From Candidatus Wallbacteria bacterium (GTDB taxonomy: Bacteria; Muiribacteriota; JAQTZZ01): a stretch of 64,000 nt of DNA. Numbering within the stretch: the first letter of the stretch is position 1; every line of letters starts with the position of its first letter. Below, in pieces: positions 23,968 to 52,200 of this stretch. The notes beneath the pieces are model-generated. The model ran no database searches and was not told where the DNA came from. It saw only the letters and a list, made by a program, of their open reading frames with translations. Made by a program: the position numbers and the translations under genes. The stretch lies in the NCBI GenBank assembly GCA_028687545.1, contig JAQTZZ010000003.1:1-64000 (forward strand). Reading direction: 5' to 3'.

Positions 23968-25110
23968 ATGTCGCGTGACCGATTGGATTCAAATGATGAA
24001 GATGTTCAGTATGAGATTCATATCCGTAGGAAACCGAAATTAATCGATAAAATAATATTTCGCTTACTGAAAATACTGCCTGCCAAAGATGTCAAACCTG
24101 GTAATCCACTAAAGCTATTGAAAGAGGTAAAGAGTTTCAAGGCTCTTGTAATTCTGATTTTAATTATTATTTTCACCATAAAAATTACCAGGGATTTTAT
24201 TGATACATTTCCATTAAAATGCAGCTGGACGCAAGCGACAGCGAGAGCACCATTTCCCCAGAGAAGAGTTCATTCCAGTATAGTCTTTAACAACAAAATG
24301 TGGGTGATCGGAGGTTACGGAGAGGGTGCTGTAAATTTAAATGATGTATGGTCTTCTGCTGATGGGATCACCTGGATTCAGTTCACTGCAAATGCAGCTT
24401 TTTCTGCCAGACATGCTCATACCAGCCTGGTTTTTAACAATAAGATGTGGGTGATCGGTGGGTGGGACGGAACAAAATGTAATAACGACGTCTGGTCTTC
24501 CTCCGATGGTGTAACCTGGATCCAGATTACACCTAATGCGGCTTTTCCTCCAAGATACTTGCATTCCAGTGTGGTTTTTGGCAATAAAATGTGGGTGATC
24601 GGCGGGACCCCATGGTTTGGTGGTTCCACTTCATACAATGACGTCTGGTATTCTACTGACGGCGCTAACTGGACTCAAGCCACACCCAGTGCGGCTTTTT
24701 CCAAACGCTATAGTCATTCCAGCCTGGTTTTTAACAACAAGATGTGGTTGATTGGCGGATATGACAGCACTAATTATTATAATGATGTCTGGTATTCCAG
24801 TAACGGGATCACTTGGACCCAGGTCCAGGAAAATGCGGCTTTTTCCAGACGAAGTGATCATTCAAACCTGGTTTATGACAACAAGATCTGGATAATCGGC
24901 GGCGGACTTAACTATACAGGATTTACTAATGATGTTTGGTATTCCCGCGATGGTGCAACCTGGACCCAGGTCACGCCCAGTGCCGCTTTCAGTCCCAGAG
25001 ATCAGCATAGCAGTATAGTTTTAAACAACAGAATATGGGTAATCGGGGGGTGGAATAATGCCACTACCTGTTTCAGCGATGTCTGGACATGCAGGCCATC
25101 GCGATTCTGA
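23968..25110 (+). CDS. membrane-anchored Kelch-type beta-propeller (paralogue 1)
   Basis: This is 380 residues. A basic cytoplasmic tail (1-65, YEIHIRRKPKLIDKIIFRLL) is followed by one membrane segment (about 66-88, ALVILILIIIFTI). Six Kelch-like repeats of about 48 residues follow, each of the form W-T-Q-x-x-x-x-A-A-F-x-x-R-x-x-H-S-S-x-V-F-N-N-K-M-W-V-I-G-G ... NDVW, given here residue by residue. The last ends DVWTCRPSRF. Six blades fit a closed propeller outside the cytoplasm. Function is unknown; such propellers bind proteins or glycans. The next gene is a paralogue. The ribosome site is weak. Confidence 0.85.
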   Translation: MSRDRLDSNDEDVQYEIHIRRKPKLIDKIIFRLLKILPAKDVKPGNPLKLLKEVKSFKALVILILIIIFTIKITRDFIDTFPLKCSWTQATARAPFPQRRVHSSIVFNNKMWVIGGYGEGAVNLNDVWSSADGITWIQFTANAAFSARHAHTSLVFNNKMWVIGGWDGTKCNNDVWSSSDGVTWIQITPNAAFPPRYLHSSVVFGNKMWVIGGTPWFGGSTSYNDVWYSTDGANWTQATPSAAFSKRYSHSSLVFNNKMWLIGGYDSTNYYNDVWYSSNGITWTQVQENAAFSRRSDHSNLVYDNKIWIIGGGLNYTGFTNDVWYSRDGATWTQVTPSAAFSPRDQHSSIVLNNRIWVIGGWNNATTCFSDVWTCRPSRF

Positions 25111-25204
25111 GATGCAAATATTACCTGTCTGAAAATTTTACTTTAAACACAGACTCATGTTAATTAAATATAGCGGACTGGATTCAGGCAGAGAGGGATA
25201 AATA

Positions 25205-26344
25205 ATGCCTCGTGATGAATGGGATTCTACTTACAGCGATATTCAACATGAGATTCATACCCGTAAGAAACCGAATTTAATCGACAGATTAATTTTTTTC
25301 CTGATGAAAAGGTATCCATCTGGAGATATCAGACCTGGCTGTTCGGCCAGGGTATTTCAGGCACTGATTTTTTTCCTGGTTGTGATTGCATTGTTTTCTG
25401 TGATCATCTTTACCTCAAGTAAACTGCTGGATTCAGTTGCCCCGGTTTCGCTAAGATGGAAACAGGCGACTTCAGAGGCGGCTTTTTCCGCCCGCCGCGG
25501 TCAGGCCAGCCTTGTCTTTAACGACCAGATCTGGGTGATGGCCGGTTGGGACGGGACCAGCACAAAAAACGATGTCTGGTCTTCGACTGATGGAATTTCC
25601 TGGTCCCTGGCTACTGCAAGTGCTGCCTGGAGCAAAAGAAATACTCCTGTCTGCCTGGTTTTTGACAGTAAAATGTGGCTGCTGGGCGGTTATACTAATG
25701 ATTCGAATAAGTATAACAACGATGTCTGGAATTCAGCTGATGGAATCAACTGGATTCAGGTGACCCCTTCAGCGCCCTGGAGCGGGAGATCTAACCATTC
25801 AGGTCTTATCTTTGACAACAAAATGTGGATAATGGGAGGGTATAACTTTTATAAATTCTCGAATGATGTCTGGTGTTCTACAGATGGCCTGAACTGGACA
25901 GAGGTTGCCTCATCTGCTCCCTGGCCTGCAAGAACAGGCACCCAATGTCTGGTTTTTGACAATAAAATGTGGGTAATTGGCGGCAGCGGCAGCAATTCTA
26001 ACTACAGTGATGCATGGTATTCCACTGATGGCAAGGACTGGACTGCAGTTACTACTGAAGCTCCCTGGGGAAGCCGGACCGCACACTCATGCCTGATTTA
26101 TGGAAAAAGCTTATTGTTGATAGGTGGATATCAGAGCGTTACAACTGCAGATCTTACATATAAGAATGATGTCTGGTCCACCAGTGATGGCATCACCTGG
26201 ACCAAGATAGCTGCTGTCGCTGTATTCCCAGGGCGTTTTTATCATTCCAGCCTGGTTTATAAAAGCAAGCTGTGGGTAATCGGAGGAGGAGACGGCACAG
26301 GAGTGAAAAACGATGTCTGGTCATGCAGGCCGTCCAGATTCTGA
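25205..26344 (+). CDS. membrane-anchored Kelch-type beta-propeller (paralogue 2)
   Basis: This 379-residue protein has the same plan as its neighbour. The tail (IQHEIHTRKKPNLIDRLIFF), membrane segment (about 58-80) and six Kelch repeats are followed by the same ending, DVWSCRPSRF. Repeat signatures include FDNKMWIMGGY and NDVWSSTDGISW. The two genes are a tandem duplication, 94 bp apart, with diverged repeats. It has a better ribosome site (GAGAGGGATAA) than paralogue 1. The conserved cytoplasmic tail suggests it also matters, perhaps for localisation or for contact with a cytoplasmic partner. Confidence 0.85.
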   Translation: MPRDEWDSTYSDIQHEIHTRKKPNLIDRLIFFLMKRYPSGDIRPGCSARVFQALIFFLVVIALFSVIIFTSSKLLDSVAPVSLRWKQATSEAAFSARRGQASLVFNDQIWVMAGWDGTSTKNDVWSSTDGISWSLATASAAWSKRNTPVCLVFDSKMWLLGGYTNDSNKYNNDVWNSADGINWIQVTPSAPWSGRSNHSGLIFDNKMWIMGGYNFYKFSNDVWCSTDGLNWTEVASSAPWPARTGTQCLVFDNKMWVIGGSGSNSNYSDAWYSTDGKDWTAVTTEAPWGSRTAHSCLIYGKSLLLIGGYQSVTTADLTYKNDVWSTSDGITWTKIAAVAVFPGRFYHSSLVYKSKLWVIGGGDGTGVKNDVWSCRPSRF

Positions 26345-27175: not shown

Positions 27176-28156
27176 TTAATCAGATTTCTGGGTGATGACC
27201 TTGATCAGTTCCTTGACATATCCTTTGATTTCCTTGATGATGTCCGGATTTAATTCGAATTCCATGTATTTCTGCCAGGTGGAGATGGCCTTGAAGTTCA
27301 AGCCGATTTTTTCATAGATGATGGCCAGGTTGTAATAGGCTTCCTTGAGGAACGGGTCCAGGCTGAGTGCCTTGAGATAATAAACGACTGCCTGCGAATA
27401 TTCCGCCTTCAGGTCATAGGCCAGGGCCAGATTGTAGTTCACCTCAGGAGCGTTCGGATACTTTACGGCAACTGTTTCGAAATCCCGCACCGCTTCGCCC
27501 AGGTTATCCTTCTGATAATTTGCGAATCCATCCTTGAAGCAACTGTTGAGGCCGATTTCCTTCAAGTTTTTCCCGTTCTGCTGATAGTACTTGTAATAGA
27601 AGTTGACTTTTTTGACATAGTTCCTTGTTTCTTCATAAGGAGGAATCCCGTTGTACTGAATCACCCGGGACGGTCCTGCATTGTATGCAGCCAGAGCCAG
27701 GTTCACATTCTTGAAGCGGACAAGCAGCTCGCTGAAATAACTGGTGCCTCCCTGCACATTCTGCTCAGGATCATAGGGGTCCTTGACTCCACATTTTTCG
27801 CAGATCACAGGCATCAGTTGCATCAGTCCCATCGCGCCCTTTTTGGAGACCGCCTTTGGGTCGAAATTGGACTCTGCTTTGATGATCGCCAGCACAAGCG
27901 CGGGTGGTAGTTCGTACTTTTCGGAATAGAGGGCCACGCTGTCCTGGTACTTCTCGCCGGTCTCCATCAGAGTGTAATAACCTTTGCTGCTCAGCAGCCT
28001 GCGCGGCTGCTTGCTGGTGGTTACCAGGATCTGATAGTCTTCGCTCTGCGGTTTGTCGGTGATATAGACATTGCCGTGGCTGTCCCGATAGCTATAGATG
28101 GCTGCGTGGCAGAACCCGCTAAAATATAGAAGGAACACTAAGAAAATCGCTTTCAT
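27176..28156 (-). CDS. lytic transglycosylase (SLT domain) with TPR tail
   Basis: This is 326 residues. A signal peptide (1-18) is followed by a DUF4124-like segment (IYSYRDSHGNVYITDKPQ). The SLT domain spans about 75-190, with ALVLAIIKAESNFDPKAVS (catalytic Glu in AESNF), GAMGLMQLMP and LALAAYNAGPSRV. Residues 205-315 are TPR repeats (VNYNLALAYDLKAEYSQAVV). Such enzymes cleave the glycan strand of peptidoglycan in the periplasm, for turnover or to let envelope machines through. The C-terminal TPRs probably recruit partners. It is last in a minus-strand cluster with the pseudopilin fusion. Confidence 0.9.
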   Translation of the reverse strand: MKAIFLVFLLYFSGFCHAAIYSYRDSHGNVYITDKPQSEDYQILVTTSKQPRRLLSSKGYYTLMETGEKYQDSVALYSEKYELPPALVLAIIKAESNFDPKAVSKKGAMGLMQLMPVICEKCGVKDPYDPEQNVQGGTSYFSELLVRFKNVNLALAAYNAGPSRVIQYNGIPPYEETRNYVKKVNFYYKYYQQNGKNLKEIGLNSCFKDGFANYQKDNLGEAVRDFETVAVKYPNAPEVNYNLALAYDLKAEYSQAVVYYLKALSLDPFLKEAYYNLAIIYEKIGLNFKAISTWQKYMEFELNPDIIKEIKGYVKELIKVITQKSD

Positions 28157-29474: not shown

Positions 29475-30716
29475 TCAATATAGCGGAAAAGCGCACTGGT
29501 CATTGGTTACATCAGCATCCCCGTTTGTCAGGCAACACTCATAATTGCCGTCAAGCTGCTTCAAAAAGAGCCGCTGGCCCCCGTCTTTTGTGCTGGAATA
29601 AACGAGCCTTTTCCCGTCAGGGGAGAAGGATGGACTGGAGTTGACTTCACCTGTGGTGAACACTTCATCGGTTCTCGTCAACACCGAGTATTTGTAAATA
29701 GTATTACCGGACTGATAACAGAGGTACTGTCCGTCCGGGGAAAAAGCCGGCTCAGAAACAGGGGAGTTTGAAGTCGATTTTCTGGTCGGGTGATTGTTGG
29801 CAATTTCCTTGAGATTGGTGACATTGACCAGATACAGCTCCATTGCCCCGTTTTGGTCCGAACAGAAGGCCAGCACAGTACCGTTCGGCGAGAAACATGG
29901 ATAATTGGTATTAGGGGCATTCAGAGCTGTGACACGGGTTGGATACTGACCATCCAGACTCATGATCCAGATTTCCGAAGTTCCCCCACCCTGGTTGCAG
30001 GAATATGCAATCTTGGAGCCGTCAGGTGAAAAGCAGGGATATTCGCAGTTTCCTGATCCCATAGTGGTGAGCTGTTTGAACCCTTTTCCGTCGCTTCCTA
30101 TCAAATAAATCTGTTTACTGCCGGACATGCTGCTGTCGAAAACCACCTGTATTCCTTCAGGCGACAGTTTCGGATGATTGGCAGAGTAGCTCTGATCTGT
30201 GACTACCCGCAAATCCCTGCCGTCCAGCAGCACTGTATAAACCATCGAATTCCCGCCGGAATGCCTTACGAAAACTATCCTTTTCTGGTAATACATCTCG
30301 TACAAGTCATCGCCAGCCCAGACTCCTGCTTTGTCTTTGAAAGGTATCTGAAGTTTTCCGTCCGGGCCTGTGGATACTATTTTATAAAGAAATTCGTCCT
30401 GGATGTAACTGTTTCCCCAGGGGTCGATCGGAATCGAAACCAGCTGGTTTCCGATCAGGTTATTAAGGGAGGGCCAGCAGCTGTTCTTGAGATAAAAAGT
30501 TCCCGCAGCCTCGGCCAGAGATTTCAGGTCATCCTTGCATTTTGCACGCTTGGCGTCCTGGATATTGCCTGAAATGTATTTATACGCCAGGGGCACCAGC
30601 ATCGTCAGGATCATCATCACTGCAACGACTTCCAGGAAAGTGAAGCCTTTTTCAGGCAGATTTTGAATTAAACTGTTTTTCCGGGAATTCTGCAGCCAAC
30701 ATTTAAAATTCAACAT
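29475..30716 (-). CDS. GspG-like pseudopilin fused to a TolB-type beta-propeller
   Basis: This is 413 residues. Residues 22-45 hold a type IV prepilin cleavage site (PEKGFTFLEVVAVMMIL, cut after Gly, Glu at +5 of the mature form) and the hydrophobic helix. Residues 50-140 follow the major pseudopilin GspG pattern, including IPIDPWGNSYI and IVSTGPDGK. Residues 150-413 are tandem PD40/TolB-like repeats (ANHPKLSPEGIQVVFDSS, CFSPDGSKIAYSCNQG, SPSFSPDGKRLVYSS), enough for a propeller. Prepilin peptidase and the rest of a type II secretion or pilus machine are not in this window. I infer a minor pseudopilin whose tip carries a binding propeller. It starts 10 bp after relA. Confidence 0.85.
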   Translation of the reverse strand: MLNFKCWLQNSRKNSLIQNLPEKGFTFLEVVAVMMILTMLVPLAYKYISGNIQDAKRAKCKDDLKSLAEAAGTFYLKNSCWPSLNNLIGNQLVSIPIDPWGNSYIQDEFLYKIVSTGPDGKLQIPFKDKAGVWAGDDLYEMYYQKRIVFVRHSGGNSMVYTVLLDGRDLRVVTDQSYSANHPKLSPEGIQVVFDSSMSGSKQIYLIGSDGKGFKQLTTMGSGNCEYPCFSPDGSKIAYSCNQGGGTSEIWIMSLDGQYPTRVTALNAPNTNYPCFSPNGTVLAFCSDQNGAMELYLVNVTNLKEIANNHPTRKSTSNSPVSEPAFSPDGQYLCYQSGNTIYKYSVLTRTDEVFTTGEVNSSPSFSPDGKRLVYSSTKDGGQRLFLKQLDGNYECCLTNGDADVTNDQCAFPLY

Positions 30717-30726
30717 TTCACCTCAC

Positions 30727-32979
30727 CTATTTCAACCTGTATGCCTTCAGAACTTCCGGTATCGCAGCCAGTCTGGCGAGAATGCCTTCAAGCTGCGCCA
30801 CTTCCGAGAGTTCGATCTGGACATTGATGATCCCGCCGCCGTTTTTATTGCTGCGTGCGTTGAGATTGCTGATGTTGAGACTCATCTGGGTCGACAGTAC
30901 CTGGGTGATGTCCAGGATCATGTTGGGCCTGTCATCCACCTCCAGCCTGATCGAAACGAAGAAGGTCCCTTTTTTGATCTGTGCCTGGTCCCAGTGCAGG
31001 GCGATCAGCCGTTCCCGCTCATTCATGCTTTTGATGTTCGGGCAGTTGCTGCGGTGGACAGAAATACCTCTGCCGCGGGTGATGTAGCCCACTATCCTGT
31101 CGCCTGGAAGAGGGTTGCAGCAGCGTGAGAAGTTCAGGAGAGGATTGTCGATTCCTTCGACTATAATGCCTTGGGTGGATTTGGATTTTTTCTCTTGTCC
31201 TGTGCCGATCTTTTTCAGACGTTTCTGCGTGTCGAGGTAAAGGTTCCATTCCGGATAAACTTTGTTGAACAAATGCTGGAAACTGAGCTTGTCTCCACCC
31301 AGGGCCACCATGATCTCCTCAGGATTGCGGAAATCGGAGTCGGAAAACATTTTTTTGATCCGCTCTGTCTTTAAGAATGCCCCTGGGGACAGTTCGGCAG
31401 GGTTGAACGGTGGATTTTCGGCTTTTTCCACGATCTTCTGCATTCGTTTCAAACCCTTCTGCAGTGTGATCTTACCCCTGTCGAGGTAGACGTCGTGCTC
31501 CTGCTTGCGGAGATACTGCCGGATCTTATTCTTGGCGCGGTGGCTTTTGACGATTTCCAGCCAGCTCGTATTGGGATGGGACTGATTGGAAGTGATTACT
31601 TCCACAACATCACCATTTTTAAGCTGATAGTCGAGAGGAACTATCTTGCCGTTGACTTTGGCACCTGAGCATCGAATCCCTACATCAGTATGCACGGTGA
31701 AAGCGAAATCCAGAGGAGTTCCTGAGGCCGGCAGAGCCACTACATCGCCGGTCGGTGTAAATACAAAGACTTCGTCCTGGAACAGGTCGTTCTTGAGGTT
31801 GTGCATGAAGTCTGTGGCGTCCTGGATTTCGGAATGCCAGTCGATGAGCTGCCTCAGCCAGGAGATTTTCTGATTGACTTTCAGGTTGTCTGACTGGTTT
31901 TTCACTTCCTTGTAATCCCAGTGCGCGGCGATACCTGCCTCAGCCACCCTGTCCATTTCTTCGGTGCGGATCTGGATCTCCAGCGGAAGGCCTTCGTTTG
32001 TGTTGGCAACCTTCTGCATCACAGTGGTGTGCAGCGATTGATAGAGGTTCTGCTTGGGGATGGCAATGTAATCCTTGAATCTTCCGGGCATCGGTGTCCA
32101 GAGGTCATGCACTATGCCCAGGGCAGTATAGCAGTCCCTGACAGTGGGAAGGATAATCCTGACAGCCAGCAGATCGTAGATTTCATCGATGGTTTTATTG
32201 TTCTGCAGCATCTTCCTCCAGATGCTGTACAAGTGCTTCGTGCGGCCGTAAATTGTGGCCTGGATATGATTTTCCTTGAATCTTTCAGTGAGGAGTTCTA
32301 TGGTCTGTTCAACATAATTATCGCGTTCATTGGCACGTTCCGCCATCTGCCGATGAATTTTTTCATATTCAGCGGGTTCGATGGCGTTGAAACAGTAATC
32401 TTCGAGCAGCGATTTTATCTGGTGCATGCCGAGGCGGTGGGAGAGAGGCGAATAGATGTCCAGGGTTTCCCTGGCGATCCGCTTCTGCTTTTCCGGAGGC
32501 AGCGCGGATAGCGTCAGCACATTATTAAGCCTGTCTGCGAGCTTGATGATGATCACCCTGATGTCTTCGGACATGGCGAGCAGCATTTTGCGGATGTTTT
32601 CCGCCTGATGCTCGACTTTGGTTTTAAAGGCCAGTTTGCTGATTTTAGTGACCCCGTCGACAAGGCGTGCCATCACTGGCGAGAAGTTGTCCCTGATGTA
32701 ATCAACGGTAATTTCAGTGTCTTCTACAACATCGTGCAGTAGTGCTGCTGAAATGCAGGTCGAATCCATTCTCAGTTCACCGACGATCATGGCTACATTG
32801 AAAGGGTGATAGAAATAGGGAGAGCCGTCCGCGCGTTTCTGCGGTGCGTGCACACGCTCAGCCAGAAAAAATGCCTTCTCGATCAGCTCCCAGTTGGCAT
32901 CCGGATTGTAGGTGGCCACTTTCCGTTTGAGTTGAGCGAGGTCCGGTGTGTCATTGATATGGAGAAGATTGTCCATCAT
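30727..32979 (-). CDS. RelA/SpoT-type (p)ppGpp synthetase/hydrolase
   Basis: This 750-residue stringent-response enzyme has, in order, a HD hydrolase domain (FYHPFNVAMIVGEL, AALLHDVVEDTEI), a synthetase domain (PGRFKDYIAIPKQNLYQSLH), a TGS domain (VFVFTPTGDVVALPASGTPL), a zinc-finger-like/CC segment (LLNFSRCCNPLPGDRIVGYI) and a C-terminal ACT domain. The HD residues needed for hydrolysis are intact, so it is likely bifunctional (Rel type). It starts 7 bp after the pseudouridine synthase gene. Confidence 0.95.
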   Translation of the reverse strand: MMDNLLHINDTPDLAQLKRKVATYNPDANWELIEKAFFLAERVHAPQKRADGSPYFYHPFNVAMIVGELRMDSTCISAALLHDVVEDTEITVDYIRDNFSPVMARLVDGVTKISKLAFKTKVEHQAENIRKMLLAMSEDIRVIIIKLADRLNNVLTLSALPPEKQKRIARETLDIYSPLSHRLGMHQIKSLLEDYCFNAIEPAEYEKIHRQMAERANERDNYVEQTIELLTERFKENHIQATIYGRTKHLYSIWRKMLQNNKTIDEIYDLLAVRIILPTVRDCYTALGIVHDLWTPMPGRFKDYIAIPKQNLYQSLHTTVMQKVANTNEGLPLEIQIRTEEMDRVAEAGIAAHWDYKEVKNQSDNLKVNQKISWLRQLIDWHSEIQDATDFMHNLKNDLFQDEVFVFTPTGDVVALPASGTPLDFAFTVHTDVGIRCSGAKVNGKIVPLDYQLKNGDVVEVITSNQSHPNTSWLEIVKSHRAKNKIRQYLRKQEHDVYLDRGKITLQKGLKRMQKIVEKAENPPFNPAELSPGAFLKTERIKKMFSDSDFRNPEEIMVALGGDKLSFQHLFNKVYPEWNLYLDTQKRLKKIGTGQEKKSKSTQGIIVEGIDNPLLNFSRCCNPLPGDRIVGYITRGRGISVHRSNCPNIKSMNERERLIALHWDQAQIKKGTFFVSIRLEVDDRPNMILDITQVLSTQMSLNISNLNARSNKNGGGIINVQIELSEVAQLEGILARLAAIPEVLKAYRLK

Positions 32980-32986
32980 GCTGAAA

Positions 32987-33874
32987 TTATTTTACAGCCA
33001 GATCATCGATTTTTCCAGTTATTTCTGTAATTTTCCTGGCAAAGCCGGGGGGTAGGGGAGCTTTGAATGTTTTTTTTTCTCCCTGGATAGGGATCACGAT
33101 TTTCCGGCAATGCAGGAAAAGTTCGCCTGAACGGAAATATCTGGCGTCTCCGGTAAGAGGAGCTCCAAAATTCGCCATCTGTACCCTGATCTGATGGGTG
33201 CGGCCGGTGAAAAGCCTGATCATGATCAGCGTCTGCTCCCCTTTTACGGACAGGCGGCGGAGGCGCAGCAGGGCGAGCTTGCCTGTTGCGCTGATTTCCA
33301 TTTTGGGGCCGTCTGCCCTTTCTGCAAGCCTGTCGCGGAGTTCCAGAGTCCGACCACTGGGTATAAGCTGCCTGGAATCTGTTGCCAGCGCCAGGTAGAA
33401 TTTTTCTGCCTGACCCCAGTTTTCTTTCAAAGCCTTGAGAGTGCGGAAGTTTTTAGCGATCACCAGCACTCCTGAGGTGGGGAGGTCCAGCCGATGCACC
33501 GGAACCGGACGGAAAAGCCCGGCTCCGGCCAGTTGTTCGATCAGTCCGATGTGACCAGTGCCTTTGTGCACCGCAATGCCGGACGGTTTATTCAGCACCA
33601 GCAAGTCCTGATCCTCAAAGATCAGGATTTTTTTATAATCCATTGCTGCCGGCATTTCACTTTCTTCCGCTTCAAAGGGCGGGATCCTTACCGAATCGCC
33701 TGTGGAAAGCCTTACATCAACTTGAGCCCGCCTGCCGTTGATCCTGACCTGACCTGTTCTCGCCCAGCGGAAGAAGAGCGTTCGGGAAGCGCCGCGGCAG
33801 GCACGGGAGAGAAACTGCCAGAGCTTCATACCTGATTCGGTTTCGCCGACTGAGAGGGTGCGGACTTGTTTCAT
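32987..33874 (-). CDS. RluA-family pseudouridine synthase
   Basis: This is 295 residues. An N-terminal S4 RNA-binding domain (about 15-75, GQVRINGRRAQVDVRLSTGD) is followed by the catalytic domain. The active-site block is VHRLDLPTSGVLVIAKN with the catalytic Asp, and the C-terminal signature is LFTGRTHQIRVQMANFGAPL. These enzymes isomerise specific uridines in 23S rRNA or tRNA. RluC- or RluD-type specificity cannot be told apart here. It is first in a minus-strand series with relA and is divergent from the radical SAM gene. No clear ribosome site precedes the ATG. Confidence 0.92.
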   Translation of the reverse strand: MKQVRTLSVGETESGMKLWQFLSRACRGASRTLFFRWARTGQVRINGRRAQVDVRLSTGDSVRIPPFEAEESEMPAAMDYKKILIFEDQDLLVLNKPSGIAVHKGTGHIGLIEQLAGAGLFRPVPVHRLDLPTSGVLVIAKNFRTLKALKENWGQAEKFYLALATDSRQLIPSGRTLELRDRLAERADGPKMEISATGKLALLRLRRLSVKGEQTLIMIRLFTGRTHQIRVQMANFGAPLTGDARYFRSGELFLHCRKIVIPIQGEKKTFKAPLPPGFARKITEITGKIDDLAVK

Positions 33875-40231: not shown

Positions 40232-43200
40232 TTATTTCAGGATCGAGAACTTTCCTTCGAACTTGAGCCTGACTCCGTCCCGCACTGCTTCAAAGCGATA
40301 GAAATACACGCCATTGGCCAGTGGGTTGCCCTTCCTGCCGACCAGGTCGAACTGCTCCATTCCATTCGAACCGCTCAGATCGAGTGTTTTTACTTTTTTT
40401 CCGGAAGAGTCATAGATGATCAGTTTTGCTGACTCCGGAGTTCCGGAAAGTGAATACCTGACTGCGAGAAAATCTGTGGCAGGATTCGGGAACACCTGGA
40501 ACGTGTTCAGACTGAAAGGAAGATTCACTGCGAATCTGGTGGGAGCCAGCTGATTCTGGTTGCCTGCTTTGTCAGCGAGTTTGAACTGCAGCTGATAGTC
40601 CCCGTTTCCGAGAAATTCTCCGAATCTTACAGTCAGTTCTCCAGCTGCCGCATCGTAGCGGATCACCTGCGGTTTTCCATCCAGCGTGACTTCGCTGGAG
40701 CGCTCGTCAATTCCGGAACCGTATTCAGCGACTTTCAGGACGATTTCGTTGATCTTTTCCTTGTATTCCGGCTTGGCTTCAGTCAGAAGCCTGGGAGCCT
40801 TGGTGTCCTCGAACAGTCCGTATTTGCCGCTTTGCGAGGCAGGCGCGCTGAATGAACCGCCTGCATAATTGCGGCCGAGGAAGTTCCAGCGTTCATTCGC
40901 AAAATAATAAATTCCGGAACGCGGCGAGTCAGAGGCTTCGATTTTCAGAACTCCTGGTTTCGCTGCAGGGAAATAGAAAGAGTAAGCTGAACCGGTCTGA
41001 ACCAGTTCCCCTTCATAGGGAGCTCCTGAAGCAGGAGTGTTCAGGGGCGAATCCTGGAAGCAGACGATCGCTGCCTGCTCCTCTGTCAGATAGGAAAGAA
41101 GGGCCTGTTTGTCCGGGCTCGCGAGTGAACCTGTCTTGAAACTGCTCATTTCATAGACGAAATACATTGAGACTGTCCGGCCGCTGTCAGTCATTTTGAT
41201 CATGCCCAGTCCCGGATAGCTGCTTTTCAGGTGATATGCTCCTTTGAAGATATTGCTGCTCGAACCTGTAAGCTGCACAGTTGGGACTACCTCTGAGGTC
41301 GACATTCCGGTCTGCCAGATCACCAGCTGATGTGGAGAGCTCAGATATGCAGTCGGTTTTTTCAGATAGATCATCAGCGTGGTACCGTCTCCCGGCAGCG
41401 GGAAGGCTTCCAGCACATGATTTGCACAATTGGCGGCAGTGGTGAAATTGTAGGAGTAATCATCGCTCATGCTGTTGCCAGCCAGGTCTTTGCAGGAAGC
41501 TTTGACTGTGACAGTGTATCTGATGCCGTTGACCAGGGACGGGAAAGGACTGAAAGCAGCTGTCACTGTATCCGGATCATAGCTGAAATTTTGAACAGGT
41601 ATCAGGCGGGAACCGTTGGTCAGTGTGATCGTATCTTCTGAGATGGAATCCTGATCCATTGCTTCGCTGAATTTGATGCTGATTTCCTGTGTCAGAGGGA
41701 TACTGGTGGCATTTTCCACCGGAGTAACGGTTTCCACTACAGGAGGCTGGTTGTCAGACTCTGTGGTGAAATAAAGAGGACCGTCATTGTATGGATCGCC
41801 GCTGCTGATCGAAGAACCGCCGTCGACTGTAAAATAGTACCTTGTACTGTATTCCAGAGTGGGTGGAATGAACTTTTCCAGCCGCAGGGTTCCGATATAG
41901 GAGAGGGGAGATTTTGGAGAGATTTCGGGTCCGCTGAGACTGCCTTTATACAGCTTGATGATATGGCCGATTCCGTTGTCTGAAGTAAAGAAAGCCTGAA
42001 TTGAAGTGTCGATGCTGACATTGGACGCTCTGCTTGGCGGAATGGTGTGGCTGAGACCTGCTGCTGTGACGCCTCCCACAGTTTTGAACTGCAGCCTGTA
42101 GTATTCATATGAAAGGTTGGGCAGGCCGTCACCATCAGAGTCCAGCTTATGGCCATTGACGTCATAGACTGTTGCCATGATTTTAAGGTTGTAAGTCTCG
42201 TTTTCCGCGAGAGGAGTGGTCAGGATAGTGATCCTGATTTCCTTGGTGTCGACAGGTTCATTGATCGAGATCGGGATGATGGTTCCAGAGCTGTTGGTGA
42301 ACATGACCGAGGAAGTGCCTGCCGTGTTCAATGAATCCACTTCCATGGTATTGGTGAACTGCACGATGATCTCAGTCAATGATGTGGGAACCGTGTTCAG
42401 GTAATTATCCGGGATGGTTAGAACGACTTGCGGGTAGACTGTAGTCACGACCGGAGTTCCTGTCTGGAATCGCGAGGTGAACATGCTCTGCATTGTATTG
42501 CCCAGTGTGTCCTTGGAACTGCTGCCGACAACGACTGTATAGTAGAAATTTGTGATGAGTTCACCTGTGTCTGGATCAAAGGTGAGCACAGTCTGGGATG
42601 TGTTCCATGTTTTCTGGCCTGTGATCACTTCTCCGGTGTTGGAGACCAGGCTGAAGGAATTTCCCGTCACTGTCATATCCATGGCCTTGCTGAACGTAAC
42701 GACAATCACTTCGCTGCTGGAAACGTTTGTCTCTTCATTGGCCGGAGCAACAGAGACCACATATGGGAAATTCTGGGAAGTTGTCTGGAAACTGAAGATA
42801 TACTCGTCCAGAGGCGTACTGGAAAGATCGCCGTCAAAGCCGTTTCCTGCCAGGTCTTTGACCCCGTCTTCATTGATCGTCACTTTGTAGGTCTGGGTGC
42901 CGCCCAGCGGAACTATTGGAGTCAGCTCCGCCACATGGAGTCCCGATGAGTATTGGTCGAAATAGTGATAGAACGCATTGATCGGAACATTGCTCTGGTT
43001 GGTCAGGGAAATGGTGCTGGAATTGACGGTTGTCTCATCCACTGACTCGCTGAAATAGATCAGGATCTTGCTGTTAAGGCTTACGTTGAGGGAGCCGTTC
43101 TGCGGGTAGACTCCGTTCACAGTAGGTGGCATCTGGTCCGGATCAGGGAGGTTTTCAGTTTTAAAGGAGAATGGATAGTCGCTGATCAATGGAATTCCGC

Positions 43201-46200
43201 TCACATCTCTGCAGGAATTGGCCACTTTTACATAGATGTCCTTATTGAACGGCAGCGGATTCACCAGATTCAGATAGAATTTGGTGAGGTCCGACGGATT
43301 GTAAGTCACGGATGTGTTGAGCCTGGCCAGAACTTCACCGGTACCTGAAGCATTGGCGGTCAGCATGCTGGCAGTGATGCCGGTAAGAACTCTTGCTGCG
43401 TCCATGTTGTGATTGAACACGATTTCGATGCTGTCGAGCGTGTATCTGACATTTGTTGCCCCACTGGACGGACTGGTGCTGATGACCTTGACCACAGGCA
43501 GAGTGCCGAGGGTGTAAAAGTAGTATGTAAGGGTGTCAAGTTTGATGGTATTGGTATAGCCATCAAAATTGTTGCCATAGAGATCTTTGGCACCTGTCGC
43601 GACCTGCACTTTATACTGTTCGCCAGGTTGCAGGGTGTTGCTGGGATGGAAGGTCAGCTGATGGGGATGTGCTCCTGCGGTGTCCAGATAGGTTTTAGTG
43701 CCTCCAACCTGGTTTTCCTGGCTGTCCAGGAGAGAAAAGCCGTAATATACGCTTCCTTCATCCATGGTCTTGTTGAAGTAAAGCACAATGTCTGAACTCA
43801 GAGCTACATCGACTGAGTCCGGGCTGGGTGTCGTATAGTCCCTGACCCAGGTCGGCGTGAGAGTGTCGGGTATTGTATAGGCTTCAATCTTGAAATGATA
43901 ACTATAGTCCTGGAGCAGCCTGTTCCCGCTGGAGTTTGTGCAACTGGAGCCGATGCTGAGTTCGATGGTGGAGTTGTATGGCAGCGGATTTCTGGGCAGC
44001 AGATAGAAGTTCTTGAAATCCCCGCTCCAGGTGAGATTGCAGGCCAGACTGTTCTCTATGATGGTTTCCTTAGTGGTACCCGGCAGGATCACAGGCATCA
44101 GTTCCTTGGCGTTCAGTCCGGTGCTGATGCTCGCAGGGTCCATCGGATGGCTGAAATCGACTTCAATTGTACCGAGCAGGTGGGAAACATTGATTGCCCC
44201 GTCTGTCGGGATTGTCTTGAGCACCCAGGGGCTGACTCCTGTAGTGTAGAATACGAGCGAGAGGCCGTCCGCAGGAACTGTCTTGGGGATTCCATCAAAC
44301 AGGTTCCCTGAGAGGTCCTTGGCGGTATTTTCGATGATGACCTGGTACTTCACTCCTGCAGTCATGTCATAGGAGGGGTTGAAGACCAGTTCATTGCTGT
44401 GCGCTCCGCCGCTGCCGCGGTAGGCCAGGGTTCCTGTGATTTCATTGGAATCCTTGTCCAGCAGATGGAAGGCTTTATACAGGCTGCCTTCATCCATGGG
44501 TTTGGTGAAATAGATATAGATGTTGGCATCAGGGGAGACTTCAACCGACCCGTCCAGGGGGGAACTTAGAACCGTGTCCCAGGTCGGCTTGACTGTATCA
44601 GAGCCGCTTGCGGTTTCAGTAATGAATGTGAACAGGAAATCCGTGTCCTGACGGACTTCACCGTCTGCGCGCTGGCAGGTCGCCATTACTGTGACAGTGA
44701 TTGGCTTGCCATACGGCAGGGGGTTGTTGAGCAGCAGGTAGAATTTTGTTACCGGAGCTGTAGTAGCCGCTATTACAGTGGCCTGGAGGTGCTGGTCGTC
44801 CGCGACGGCATAGAGCCCTGCTGCCACGCTTGCGACATCCATGGGCTGGCTGAAATTGACTTCAACTGTCTGGAGCAGATGGGAAATATTGGTGGCACCG
44901 TCGGCAGGGATCGTGCTGAGCACAAGCGGACGGGCTGCCCCGGTTATGAAACTGATCTGCAACGGGTCATACTTGCTTGTGTTGCGGTTGCTGTCAAAGA
45001 AATTTCCGCTCAGGTCTTCAGCGCCTGGATTGGTATTTACGATAAAGATAAAGGCAGTGTCTGGTTTCAGGTCAAGGGTTGGCGTGAAGATCAGCTCGTG
45101 AGTGGAAGAACTCTCTCCTGAATCAAGGTAAGTCATAGTCCCTGCAACTTCCGGACCATAAGATTCCTGGGTGCCTTCAGTGCTGTTCAGTTCTCTGAGC
45201 GTGAATGCATTATAGAGACTGGCTTCATTCATGGATTTGGTGAAGAAAACGTGGATTTCGGCAGTAACAGGAATTTCCTCTGTAATCTGGTAGGGAGAGG
45301 TCGCAGTATACCAGGGTGGATAATGTGCAAGATTGACACTGCTGATCCAGGTTGGAATTGTGATGTCGCTGGAAGTACCGGTATTGAAGGTGAAGGCATA
45401 GTCAGAACTCATGCCGAGTTCATTAGTGTCGCGCAGGCAGGACTTCAGCACTGTGACTGTGATGGGTTTGTTATAGGGCAGTGGGTTTGTGAACAGCAGG
45501 TAGAATTTAGTAGTAGTGGCAACTCTTACAGCGGACTGGAGGCGCTGGCTGTCGCAGGAGGCATAGATCCCTGCGGCCACGCTCTCTGTGTCCATGGGCT
45601 GGCTGAAATTGACCTCGACTGTCCTGAGCAGGTGTGAAACGTTGATTGCGCCGTCTGCCGGGACTGTGCTGATCACAACCGGGCGGTTTGCGCCGGTGGT
45701 AAAGCTGTTCTGCAGCCTGTCATACTGATCAGTGTTACGGTTGGCGTCGAAGAAATTTCCGTTCAGGTCTCCTGCTCCCGGATTGGTGTACAGAGTATAG
45801 ACATAGACGGTATTGGCTTTCAGGTCTATGCTGGGCGTGAAGATCAGTTCATGGGTGGAACTGCTTTCTCCTGAATCCAGGTAGGCTATGCTGCCCGCGA
45901 CTCCAGGTCCGTCCTGCTCCTGGAGCGTGAATGAGCTGTAAAGAGAAGCTTCATTCATGGATTTGGTGAAGAAAATTCTGATGGAGCTGTTGATCGGGAT
46001 TTCTTCGGTAATCTGGTAGGGATAGGTCTCACTATACCAGGGAGGATTATGAGCAGGATCGGCCTTGCTGACCCAGGTTGGTATAGCATTATCCGAAGAT
46101 TTTTCAGTGGTGAAAGTAAAGACATAGTCAGCCGGCATCCTGATCAGATCCGGGGTAATGGACCTGCAGTTTTGTGAAATCGAAATCTGCACAAGGCTCT

Positions 46201-49200
46201 CATAGTGAACCGGGTTTTTCAGCTGCAGATAGAACTTCTTCGCATTCGTGAGAGTCGAAGGCAACCACTTCACTTCAGAACTCAGGTTTTGCCAGATGCC
46301 GTTTCCATCCTGAAGCTGGGCGCTGATGTTGTTTTTGACTGTGGAAGTTTCCATGGACTGGCTGAAATTGATCTCCACTGTGATTTCATTGGTTACATTT
46401 ATAGCACCAGCCGCGGGTAATGTGCTGACTACATGGGGCAGGGGGCTGCTGGTGGTGAAATTGAGAGTCAGCGGAATGGCGGCATTACCGGAAAAAGCCT
46501 CATTGCTGGTGAAGTTGTCTGTGTTCAAATCTTCAGCGCCCGGGTTGGTGTCTATGTGGAAAGTATAGCGGGCAAGAGGATTGAGTGGTACATAAGGCGT
46601 GAAAATCAGTTCATGGGTCGAGCTGTTCTCGCCTGAATCCAGATAGGCCTTGTCGCCTGCCACTACATGGCCGTCGTAGTCCTGCAGATAGGCGGCCATA
46701 TACAGCTTGGCTTCATGCATGGATGTATTGAAGAAGATCTTGATGGGATCGGTTAATGATACTTCAGTACTGTCCATGGAAGGTATTGTTCTACTGCTGA
46801 CCCAGGTGGGAATTTGTGTTTCAGCTGTCGATTCAGTCGTGAACGAGAACCAGTATTTATCCGGCATCTTTTCCCCGTCGTCTGACTCGCAGCTTCTGGA
46901 AACAATCATCCGCACAGTGTCTTTATAGGGAAGCGGATTTTTCGGGTGCAGGTAAAAAATATCTTTCGCAGCGTTCCATGTCACTTCAGCGGTCACAAAC
47001 TGCCATACATCGGTCTGATATTGCAGCTGAGCGCCGATGAAAGTTTTAGTCACATCCGGATTCATGGGCTCGCTGAATCTGATTTCTATTGTCTGGGTGC
47101 GGTTGAAAAGGTTCAGGTGAGATACATCAATCGCTCCATCGGCAGGCCAGGTGCTGATCACATGTGGCAGAGTGCTGCCTGTGGTGAAATTGTAGACCAG
47201 GTTATCCTTTGCAACCTCGGTAGTGATATAGGCGTCGAATTGATTCCCGCTGAGGTCATTGGCTACACTGTCAAACTGGATTTTATAGCTGACCAGTTCC
47301 GCCAGATTTTCGTAAGGCCTGAAAATCAATTCATGGGTTGAGCTGTTCTCGGAAGAGTCCAGATACAACTTTGTACCCCCGACTTCCTGGGTGTTTGGGT
47401 CGTAAAGATGGAAAGCCCTGTACACGCTGGCTTCATCCATGGATTCAGTGAAGAAAATATGGATTTCGCTGGTGACAGCCACTTCGATACTGTTGATGGA
47501 AGGCGACGTCTCGCTGTACCACTTGGGAGTATGGGTCAGATCGATCCTGCTGATCCAGGTGGGGGAAACTGTGTCGCTGACCGGGTTGTTTTCGGTAGTG
47601 AAAGTGATCACTGCATCATCTTTCATCCTGGTTTCGCTGGTGGAACAGCAGTTTCTCATTACCCTGATGCTGATGTTCTTGTTATAGGGAAGCGGGTTCA
47701 GGAAATGGAACATGAAATCATTGGTAGGTGAAGCAGTGTAATCAACGTAACCCTGAATCTCCTGGGAGTCATAAAATGCACGGATGGAATTAATTACAGT
47801 TGCGGTATCCATCATGTGGTCGAAGACTATCTCCACTGTCGCTATATTGTTGGAGACATTGTTTGCTCCATCCGCAGGGATTGTGCTCTGGACCTTTGGT
47901 TTGCTGCCATGGGTATTAAATGCGTAAGTCAGCGTTTCCATGGTCTCGGTGGTAAGCAGGGCATCAAAGGAATTCCCGCTCAGGTCTATGGCATATCCTA
48001 TGCTTTCAGGGGATTTGTAGCTCATCAGTTCGACCGTGTATTGCTCGGCTTCCTGGAAACTATAGCTTGGCTTGAAGCTCAGCAGATGGTTGGGGCTGTC
48101 TGTATAGACCAGGCTTCCGCTGACCATGTTCCCTTCAGAGTCGATCAGGTGGAAAGACGGACTGAGCGAAGCTTCATTCATGGATTTGTTGAAAGCGATC
48201 TCAACCGAACTGGCGATCGCTACTTCCGTGCTTCCAGGATAAGGAGTGGTGCGGGACTGCGCCTGCGGGACAAGGTCTCCATCCCAGGTGGGACGGGTAA
48301 TGTCGTGGGTGCCTTCGCTTTCCGTCTCGAAAGTGGCGGAGAAGGTCGGATTGTATTTCATTCTGGACCCTTGGGCGCTTCTGCAGTTGTTGAGAGCGAT
48401 CAGGTAAATGGTCGTGTCGTAAGGCAGAGGGTTTTCGACTTCGAGCGTGAATGTTTTGGCAGGGACTGCAGGCCAGTTGAGCTGGCTGGTTTTCAGGGGT
48501 TCCAGGCTGCCTCCATAGAAGATGGCTACCTGAAGTCCCTGGGACACAGAGGTCGGATCCATATCGTGGCTGAAAGTGAAACTCACCACTTCTTTGGTCC
48601 GGTTAACTTCTGTGGTGCCATTGCTGGGATTGGTGCTTATCACCCAGGGCGCAGCGCCGGGAGTGGCAAATTTGAAGACCAGGGGTTCCAGGGCCGGAGT
48701 GTTCAGGTATCTGTCAAAGCTGTTTCCCCAGATGTCCTTGGCATTGCTGTTGACCTCCACTGAATAGATCTCAGTATTCTTGAATCCGCCTGTGGGGATA
48801 AAGCTCAGTTCATGGGCTGCACCAGGTCTGACAGCCGGGTCCTGATAGTTCAGCTGCCCTATCACCTCGTTTTCAGCGCTGTCTTTCACTATGACAGCAG
48901 TCCTGAGGCTGGCTGCATCCATGACTTTGCTGAAATCGATGTAAATTGCGGAGTTTGTGTTTACTTCCACTGAATTGTGCTGCGGGCTGATCGAGGTCTC
49001 TGAAGTTATGGTCGGTCTGGTGGTGTCAGAAAATGTCGCAGAGACAGTTCTGAAAGATACCAGGCTTGCTTCACCAGAGTAGTCCGGGCTGGAAGAGAGA
49101 GGCACCCCGTTCAGATTCCGGATGGCGTGGCTGTAGCTGAATGTGTAATCTGAATTAAAGGCGAGATAGGAGGCTGGGTGGAACACTACCCTGTATGGCG

Positions 49201-52200
49201 ACAGGAATCCGTTCGGAACATACTGATATTCCACTGTGCCTAAGACTTCATTGTCCAGGCTGACTTCATGGCTGCATTTGAACAGCCTGACACTGTTGCA
49301 TCCCCACTTAGTCTCCACTGAATGCGAATCCAGCGGCGAATCGAAAAAGATTGTGATTTCAGTGGAAGCGTAATTTACCGGAACTTCAGTGGTCCTGTCC
49401 ACGCCTGTCTGATTAGCCAGCGGATCAGTGGTCAGGACATGCGGCACATCCTTGATCACATTGAAAGTGAATGATCTGGAGAAGATAGAGGTTCCGGCTA
49501 AGCTTACAATGCCTGGCAGAACTGTCGGATGATCGGATGCTTCCGGGCCACCGTCATTGTATGAGTTGGGTCCTGCATAAGGCACATCCGCCAGATTGGT
49601 CTGCTTGTTTTTGCCTGCCAGCATGATCGAGCAGACTCCGCCGATTTTGAACAGATTGTTGTTGAAATCAAGCACTACTATTGTTTTGCCGTCATTGCTC
49701 TGATCCTGCATGTAATAAGAATTGTCGAGCGGAGGCCCTCCGATTCCAGGCACGGTTTCCGCTGTTGTGGTCAGCTGATACCATTGATAGCCGCCATTGT
49801 TGTAAAGGCTGATCCAGAGGCTGTTCAGCTCTCCTGTCTTGTCCATGCGCTCTGAAAAGAGAAATTTAACGTTGATGTCCGGATTGAAGAACTGCTTGGT
49901 CTGGCCTGAGGTGTTTGTGTAAACTCCATTTTTTTCAGTGTAATTCACTCCATTTTCTTCAACAATTGCTTCGACTGTCGGTTCAGTCAGAGCAGTGAAC
50001 ATTGTAGCTGTGAGCGAATCGCTGTCAATCACATTGCCTGCCCTGTCGATAATGGTTCCGCTGACTACTCCACCCAGAGTATAATGGGCGTTAGGATCCA
50101 GGTAGGACGGACCGGCAGAGAAGTAATCAAACACTTCTACCGATGAGCCATAGAAAGAAGTGTCCCCTACTTTCCAGGTGGCTGAGAAAAGATTGATTGG
50201 ATTGGGATCCTTTGACTCGACTTTTTCACTGGAGATCAAGACGTCATCCTGCTTCAGGAAATCGAACAGATTTGAGGCGCTGATCGAAGGCAGCACAGGT
50301 GCGGCATTGGTCTGCGTACCGCTCCCTATGAATACAGGCTCGTCGAAATTCAGGGTGAATCCTGTATACATGGGGATGGGATCCTGGCCTGACAAATATG
50401 TAACAGGGTTTGGATTTGGAGACTGATCTTTCTGAAGCGAGCCGTCCAGATGATTGAAAAAGTAAGTCGGCATGAAAGTCATTTTTGGTTTGACTGAGTC
50501 CACGTGTATCACAAAAGTGCTTTCACATTGATTGCCTGCCCTGTCAGTGACTGTTGAAGTCAGTTCATAATCTCCGTCTGCAGGGAGGCCTCCTTTGACT
50601 TCGAAAGTGGCATTGCATTTCTGGGAAACCGGGTCTGAAGCGAGTACTTCCACGGTTTTATTGCCCATTGAGCTGGACAGGTTGAAAAAGCTGTCATAGG
50701 ATGGTGCAGGTCCGATCTTGGGTGAAGCATAGAGGTATGAATTTTTCTCAATGTAATTCACGCAGACTTCAAAAGTGGTGTTTTTCTTGAAATACGATCC
50801 TGAATCAACGACTATGGTCGGGTTTTTGGCGTCTATGATCGCTTTAGCAGTCAGGCCGATCAGTTCAGGCGTGACCACTACATCATTGATCACAGGCGGA
50901 GTGGTATCAATTGTGACGCAGGTTGAAGAATAAGGGGTGACTGTATGATTTCCGGCAGCATCCATCAGCCTGACTAGAATTCTTCCATTGTTAGCGTCCG
51001 GGCTTCCTACTGATACTTTTTTATTGGTGAAAGTGGCCATATAGTCTGAGGAGATGGTGTTAGGACTTGAACTGTCTGATCCAATGTTTCCCAGGTCCAG
51101 TATGATGTCTGAATCGGTCATGGCGCTCTGGTTGCCTGCATCGTCATAATAAAAGGTGACCTGGAAATTGTCGCCTGCAGGCAGGTAAATGGCAGGCCAT
51201 TGGCTGGCTGCCAGTTCCGAAGTGTCGAAAGACAGGCTCTTGGTGGTGTTCGAGAATACCAGACAATTGAAATCAGGTACAGTATCGTCAATCATGATAT
51301 TGTAGTAGGATTTTTCCAGGACGTTTCCTGCCTTGTCAGTGATATAGAGTGTAATGGTCTTGCCTGCTGCAACACCGACCGTGTCTACCTGAAAGTTGTT
51401 GTCAAACATGATGGTGCCTTTGGTCGAGGCCACAGTCGGTGGAACAACGGCAGCTTCATGAGTAGCATTGACTATGATGTTTTGGAGGTCCAGGTAATAA
51501 TCATTCTGGTCAAGGGAGATATTGTCTTCTGTGAAAGACACCTGGATCCTGAAATGCGAGCCTCCATTCGGTGCATATGGCGGGGAATTCTTGCCCTTGA
51601 GATAGGCCGGCGTAGTCGGCGTTGTCAGAGGCCAGGATCTCATGGACTGATTGTCCCAGCCCCAGTCGTCGTTGTAGATTGTGATGGAATCTACCACAGG
51701 CGAGATGCTGTCCACCTGCAGTGTGAAAGTGGCTGAAGAGGAAAGGCGTTCAGGCTTGATCCCTGGAATATAATCTGAAACAGTGATGATCACTGCCTGG
51801 GGAGAGCTTCTGCCGGGATCGATCGAGATCGGATACCAGGATCTGACAATGGAGTCTGCTTCCTGGTCTGTCTGCGAGGTCGGTGCGATTGTCAGAGACC
51901 CAAGATCGCAGATGTATCCTGTGGAAGTTTCATCTGTATTGTCGTCCCTGAATCTGACCCTGATCTCCATGGTACCTGTAGCAGCCACTGGTCCCACCGA
52001 GTTGCCTGACAGATAGGGGCTGGTAATCTGCCATCTCTTACCCATGCAGCGTACTTCGATCGAAGAGATCACAGGTGCTAAGGAGTCGATACCTACATGC
52101 GGCTGCCATTCCATAGGATTGTCTGTTGCTGAATCATGACCGCCGGCGCTGATCTTGACTTCCTGGCTGTTCCCGTCTGTGCAGTGGACAGGGATCGAAA

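Follow-up and report, generated by a model that had tools for sequence, protein, structure and literature searches.

For the modular pilins, 264 architectures were counted in 2021 (PMC8179133). PilB and PilC of Streptococcus sanguinis, which carry a vWA and a lectin module, respectively, consist of a class III leader, a small pilin module, and a bulky non-pilin domain attached to the C-terminus via a short linker; adhesion was demonstrated for the vWA module of PilB (PMC8179133). The same organization is found in a pilin-propeller fusion encoded in the window, which is the whole stretch of 64,000 nucleotides analysed here from a Candidatus Wallbacteria genome. The fusion differs from PilB and PilC in its head, a TolB-type six-bladed propeller, and in its pilin module, which is GspG-like.

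The two halves were compared with the known proteins they resemble. The pilin half shares with GspG/PulG a helix with Glu5, a DPWGN block, a GPDG block, and two acidic residues in the position of the calcium loop. Unlike GspG/PulG, the fusion fails the curated cut-offs, is three times longer, and lies outside a gsp operon. The acidic pair (D136-D137) is conserved in three fusions; the Asp of the GPDG block is Asn in the closest relatives. By analogy with GspG, a calcium role might be inferred for the GDD. The propeller half is a six-bladed PD40 propeller like that of TolB in the Tol-Pal system, and the top PDB matches of its model in Foldseek are TolB structures (such as 2ivz, 2.2 Å over 275 columns). 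Unlike TolB, the fusion has no TolB_N domain and no Sec leader, is joined to a pilin, and scores far under the TolB cut-off. TolB_N was found by Pfam neither in the fusion nor anywhere in its genome. It is also absent from 35 of the 36 other genomes of the phylum that were searched, the remaining one having a match below the cut-off only. The term "TolB-type" therefore refers to the propeller fold alone.

The PilY1/PilC tip adhesin also has a beta-propeller tied to type IV pili, and may be compared with the fusion in function by analogy. However, PilY1 itself is no pilin, and the propeller it carries belongs to another family; the PilC/PilY1 C-terminal propeller family gave no match in the fusion in a Pfam scan to E 1. 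The mitochondrial T2SS was rejected as a precedent, as its WD40 proteins are separate and not fused. The literature search found no paper on PD40 together with a prepilin.

Architecture and predicted structure of the fusion

The fusion ORF is uninterrupted on the minus strand (Table 1), a strand that the earlier note did not give; plus-strand frame 1 contains several stops across this interval. The prepilin motif is EKG^FTFLEVVAVMM, with Glu at +5. The N_methyl match (with neighbours in frame) reaches 21.6 bits against a cut-off of 21.2, and TIGR02532 reaches 18.0 against 16.3. The cleavage site read from the N-terminus in the earlier note is thus supported by both families. The mature module contains Phe+1, Glu+5, and, in the AlphaFold2 model, a long helix (27-78) and a small β-sheet (105-141). 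Pfam T2SSG matches residues 50-121 just under its cut-off (E 4.7e-4, 20.6 bits vs 21), and NCBIfam gspG is also under (E 4.9e-11, 42.8 vs 88.85 bits). The closest solved structure by sequence is PulG 5wda (E 1.4e-5, residues 25-113). Of the earlier assignment to a GspG-type pseudopilin, the DPWGN and STGPDGK blocks and the GspG-like matches stand; the GspG type itself does not, as the curated GspG and T2SSG cut-offs were not reached.

In the C-terminal half, PD40 was matched in four stretches (Pfam, E 8e-29), and the NCBIfam TolB propeller model was also matched (E 5e-44), far under the TolB cut-off (150.9 vs 343.15 bits). The closest solved structure by sequence is TolB 4jml (E 4e-29). These matches agree with the PD40/TolB repeats proposed earlier for this region.

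Table 1. Features of the fusion gene and its neighbours, in window coordinates.
Feature	Position	Strand	Basis or remark
RluD-type pseudouridine synthase	32987..33874	minus	Pfam PseudoU_synth_2, S4; first of the co-directional run
rsh (RelA/SpoT)	30727..32979	minus	Pfam HD_4, RelA_SpoT, TGS, ACT_4; directly upstream of the fusion
Shine-Dalgarno-like GAGGTGA	30724..30718	minus	Directly after the rsh stop codon
Pilin-propeller fusion ORF	30716..29475	minus	413 aa; ATG at 30716, stop at 29475
Prepilin leader, residues 1-24, Gly at -1	30645..30716	minus	Sequence; N_methyl match at residues 22-40
Mature pilin module, residues 25-141	30294..30644	minus	T2SSG/GspG matches, PulG 5wda, AlphaFold2 model
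DPWGN block, residues 98-102	30411..30425	minus	W100 and Y104 invariant in 8/8 fusions
STGPDGK block, residues 115-121	30354..30374	minus	G120 invariant in 8/8 fusions
GDD, residues 135-137, at GspG calcium-loop position	30306..30314	minus	Invariant in three fusions
Six-bladed TolB-type propeller, residues 146-409	29490..30281	minus	PD40, TolB propeller model, AlphaFold2, Foldseek
Coiled-coil protein, 420 aa	28200..29462	minus	Partial homologue in L098; between fusion and transglycosylase
Lytic transglycosylase (SLT) with TPR repeats	27176..28156	minus	Pfam SLT E 5e-29

The AlphaFold2 model, based on 29 aligned sequences, has a mean pLDDT of 89.8 and a pTM of 0.83. It shows the helix at residues 27-78, a small sheet to residue 141, five linker residues, and the propeller from residue 146. 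After the GDD, the last pilin strand follows shortly downstream, and then the linker of about five residues. Six blades were counted by eye from the PD40 repeats, the first being completed by the C-terminal strand; the ring is closed by the pairing of this last strand (404-409) with the first repeat. The predicted structure of the fusion thus combines an intact pilin module and a closed propeller. A run with only three sequences (pLDDT 58.9, pilin module unresolved) was superseded by the 29-sequence alignment, and an alignment including full-length GspG rows was set aside, as the GspG tails were misplaced onto the propeller. A search of a viral fold library with the fusion returned generic propellers only.

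Conservation of the fusion in related genomes

G001, another genome of this family, encodes an orthologue of 437 aa. It aligns with the fusion from end to end (38-39% identity) and directly follows the rsh gene (L023 1341-3596), as in the window. The G001 contig stops 30 bases past the fusion, and the coiled-coil and transglycosylase genes lie, ordered as in the window, at the end of a different contig. Such a split is what a conserved gene order and an assembly break at this point would produce. A second pair of fusions, paralogous to the first, adjoins a carbamate-kinase-like gene in both genomes. One fusion (377 aa) was identified in the f6 genome. Three genomes of one f7 genus contain fusions of 421-449 aa, located between a glycyl-tRNA-synthetase-like gene and recN (both named by sequence).

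Both halves are common to eight proteins from six genomes in three families of the phylum. Residues that never vary among these eight proteins are F25, E29, P82, W100, Y104, D107, G120, and G131. Chance or a chimeric assembly is excluded, since the fusion in its full length has both an orthologue and a paralogue. A break or frameshift between the halves, named earlier as a possible objection, is countered by the uninterrupted ORF and the full-length orthologues. Judged by these sequence comparisons, the pilin-propeller fusion is real and not an assembly error.

No further match spanning both halves was found in 382 genomes (342 outside the phylum) when four candidates per genome were scored; given this scoring, independent fusions may exist elsewhere. 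In family f8, a pilin cut short at a contig end shares the DPFLxR...GDD signature and is possibly a further fusion. In the pilin-module tree, the fusions cluster together (three changes, with none of 500 shuffles as low), and the starred branches do not decide for a single origin.

Gene neighbourhood and type IV filament machinery

From the RluD-type gene to the transglycosylase, five genes run in one direction with gaps of 7-43 bases, and may therefore share a transcript. A possible common transcript alone does not make them one machine. The earlier note had placed the transglycosylase gene next to the fusion, where it could open peptidoglycan for such a machine. The two genes are not immediate neighbours, and the functional link is not supported: the coiled-coil ORF intervenes, and none of the other fusion loci showed an adjacent SLT gene. 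The coiled-coil/transglycosylase pair is kept only in the closest relative (G001, on another contig), in which the transglycosylase orthologue is 62% identical. The link of the fusion to the lytic transglycosylase is weak. No pilus or secretion gene cluster was seen around any fusion. The neighbours are housekeeping genes, including rsh, carbamate kinase, and glycyl-tRNA synthetase with recN.

Other genes were noted in the window. Near the fusion, two kelch propellers with non-prepilin membrane anchors are encoded in tandem (380 and 379 aa; 23968-26344, plus strand). A 4,700-aa protein (40232-54334, minus strand) combines some 20 Ig-like domains of the Big_5 family with a C-terminus resembling Por_Secre_tail. 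It is followed by a CarboxypepD_reg repeat protein and a matrixin-like protease.

The earlier note proposed looking for a prepilin peptidase, whose absence would count against its reading, and for GspD/E/F genes outside this region; all of these types were found. There are two prepilin peptidase matches, and one gene has both the peptidase and the N-methylation domains. There are also 15 T2SSF matches, nine secretin matches, many T2SSE ATPases, a PilT-like ATPase (by sequence), and 35 N_methyl matches genome-wide. A PilM-PilB-PilC-secretin cluster is located on contig 7. Several type IV filament machines are thus encoded, and the fusion is not assignable to one of them. For this reason, and because the curated cut-offs were not reached, the module is termed "GspG-like" rather than "GspG-type".

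Possible roles of the propeller head

The fusion has the features of a modular type IV pilin: a class III signal with Gly at -1, a hydrophobic helix, Glu5, a small pilin module, and a non-pilus-specific extra domain on a short linker, in an organism with a peptidase and an assembly machine. The fusion is probably (at about 0.6) a modular minor pilin of a type IV filament, either a pilus or a pseudopilus, which presents the propeller as a binding head. The 24-residue leader would be removed by the prepilin peptidase, and the hydrophobic helix would anchor the protein in the inner membrane. A PilB/PilC-type machine could then pack the GspG-like module, with its Glu5, into the growing filament. 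The propeller, on its linker of about five residues, would project from the filament and might bind a ligand located at the outer envelope or beyond it.

The main rival is a role as membrane anchor only. The leader and helix would deliver the propeller to the outer face of the inner membrane and retain it there, with the pilin module as a spacer that never joins a filament and the propeller as a periplasmic binding scaffold. The fusion gene is outside filament clusters, and the 3,777- and 6,765-aa prepilin-type proteins of the same genome suggest anchor use of such N-termini. However, the pilin residues past the helix are conserved across the deepest fusions, the pilin module is confidently folded in the model, and the GspG-like homology reaches residue 121. 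Conserved pilin motifs beyond the signal are more than a mere anchor would need; together with Glu5 and the intact module, they favour incorporation into a filament. An anchor role is considered somewhat unlikely.

It is quite unlikely that the fusion serves a type II secretion-like pseudopilus as its cargo receptor; in that case, the propeller would stay in the periplasmic vestibule and capture a secretion substrate, which growth of the pseudopilus would push through a secretin. The module is GspG-like and not PilA-like, and nine secretin matches are present in the genome, but no gsp operon adjoins the fusion and no candidate substrate was found. In addition, the cap subunit of the minor-pilin tip complex has no Glu5 (PMC10191384), whereas Glu5 is present in all eight fusions. 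An inner-membrane-tethered substitute for TolB, acting in a Tol-Pal-like system for outer-membrane constriction, would explain a TolB-type propeller in a genome in which the classical TolB_N was not found. This is very improbable, as the fusion itself has no TolB_N, scores 151 against the TolB cut-off of 343, and has no tol genes nearby; moreover, TolB_N is missing in almost the whole phylum, whereas the fusion is found in few members only. A product of assembly chimerism or frameshift joining two genes has a negligible chance, for although the draft genome behind the window is split into 108 contigs, the fusion recurs in a separate assembly at 38-39% identity after the same upstream gene, and in six genomes in all.

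Within the modular minor pilin model, a position below the cap or along the shaft is more likely than a GspK-like cap, judging by the same comparison of Glu5 with the tip complex (PMC10191384).

Other prepilin-type proteins were observed in the same genome. An uninterrupted 6,765-aa ORF outside the window (C17:30803-51100; L123:2804-12001 + L124:1-11097) starts with the prepilin motif MRA^FTIVEILVTMILL and has kelch propeller repeats. It is far larger than the most extreme added-domain case in PMC8179133, an 860-residue protein with twelve extra repeats. A 3,777-aa prepilin-type ORF (C11 from about 70461; L128:462-11792) has PD40 repeats and a beta-helix region; the first 189 residues of these two proteins are 50% identical. 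A further prepilin (C30; L022:7596-8915) has a 320-residue C-terminal head with no Pfam family, and an Asp-box-like SLDSGASW near its end points to a different type of propeller. The packing of the 3,777- and 6,765-aa proteins into a filament is hard to imagine, so the lineage may use prepilin ends simply as anchors.

It is tentatively suggested that a type IV filament or prepilin-secretion route has been turned into a general beta-propeller display system in this lineage. At the small end would be minor pilins of about 400 aa with a single propeller (two per genome in the family), and at the large end the proteins of 3,777 and 6,765 aa. If true, propellers would be borne as binding heads on filaments or envelope fibres. 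The fusion itself adds a large binding fold, already well understood, to the modules seen on pilins, and the question arises how a propeller of about 270 residues passes through a secretin when pilin-borne. The phylum is uncultured, and almost nothing on its pili was found in the literature searched. The fusion is a concrete candidate for how such cells might attach to or capture large molecules.
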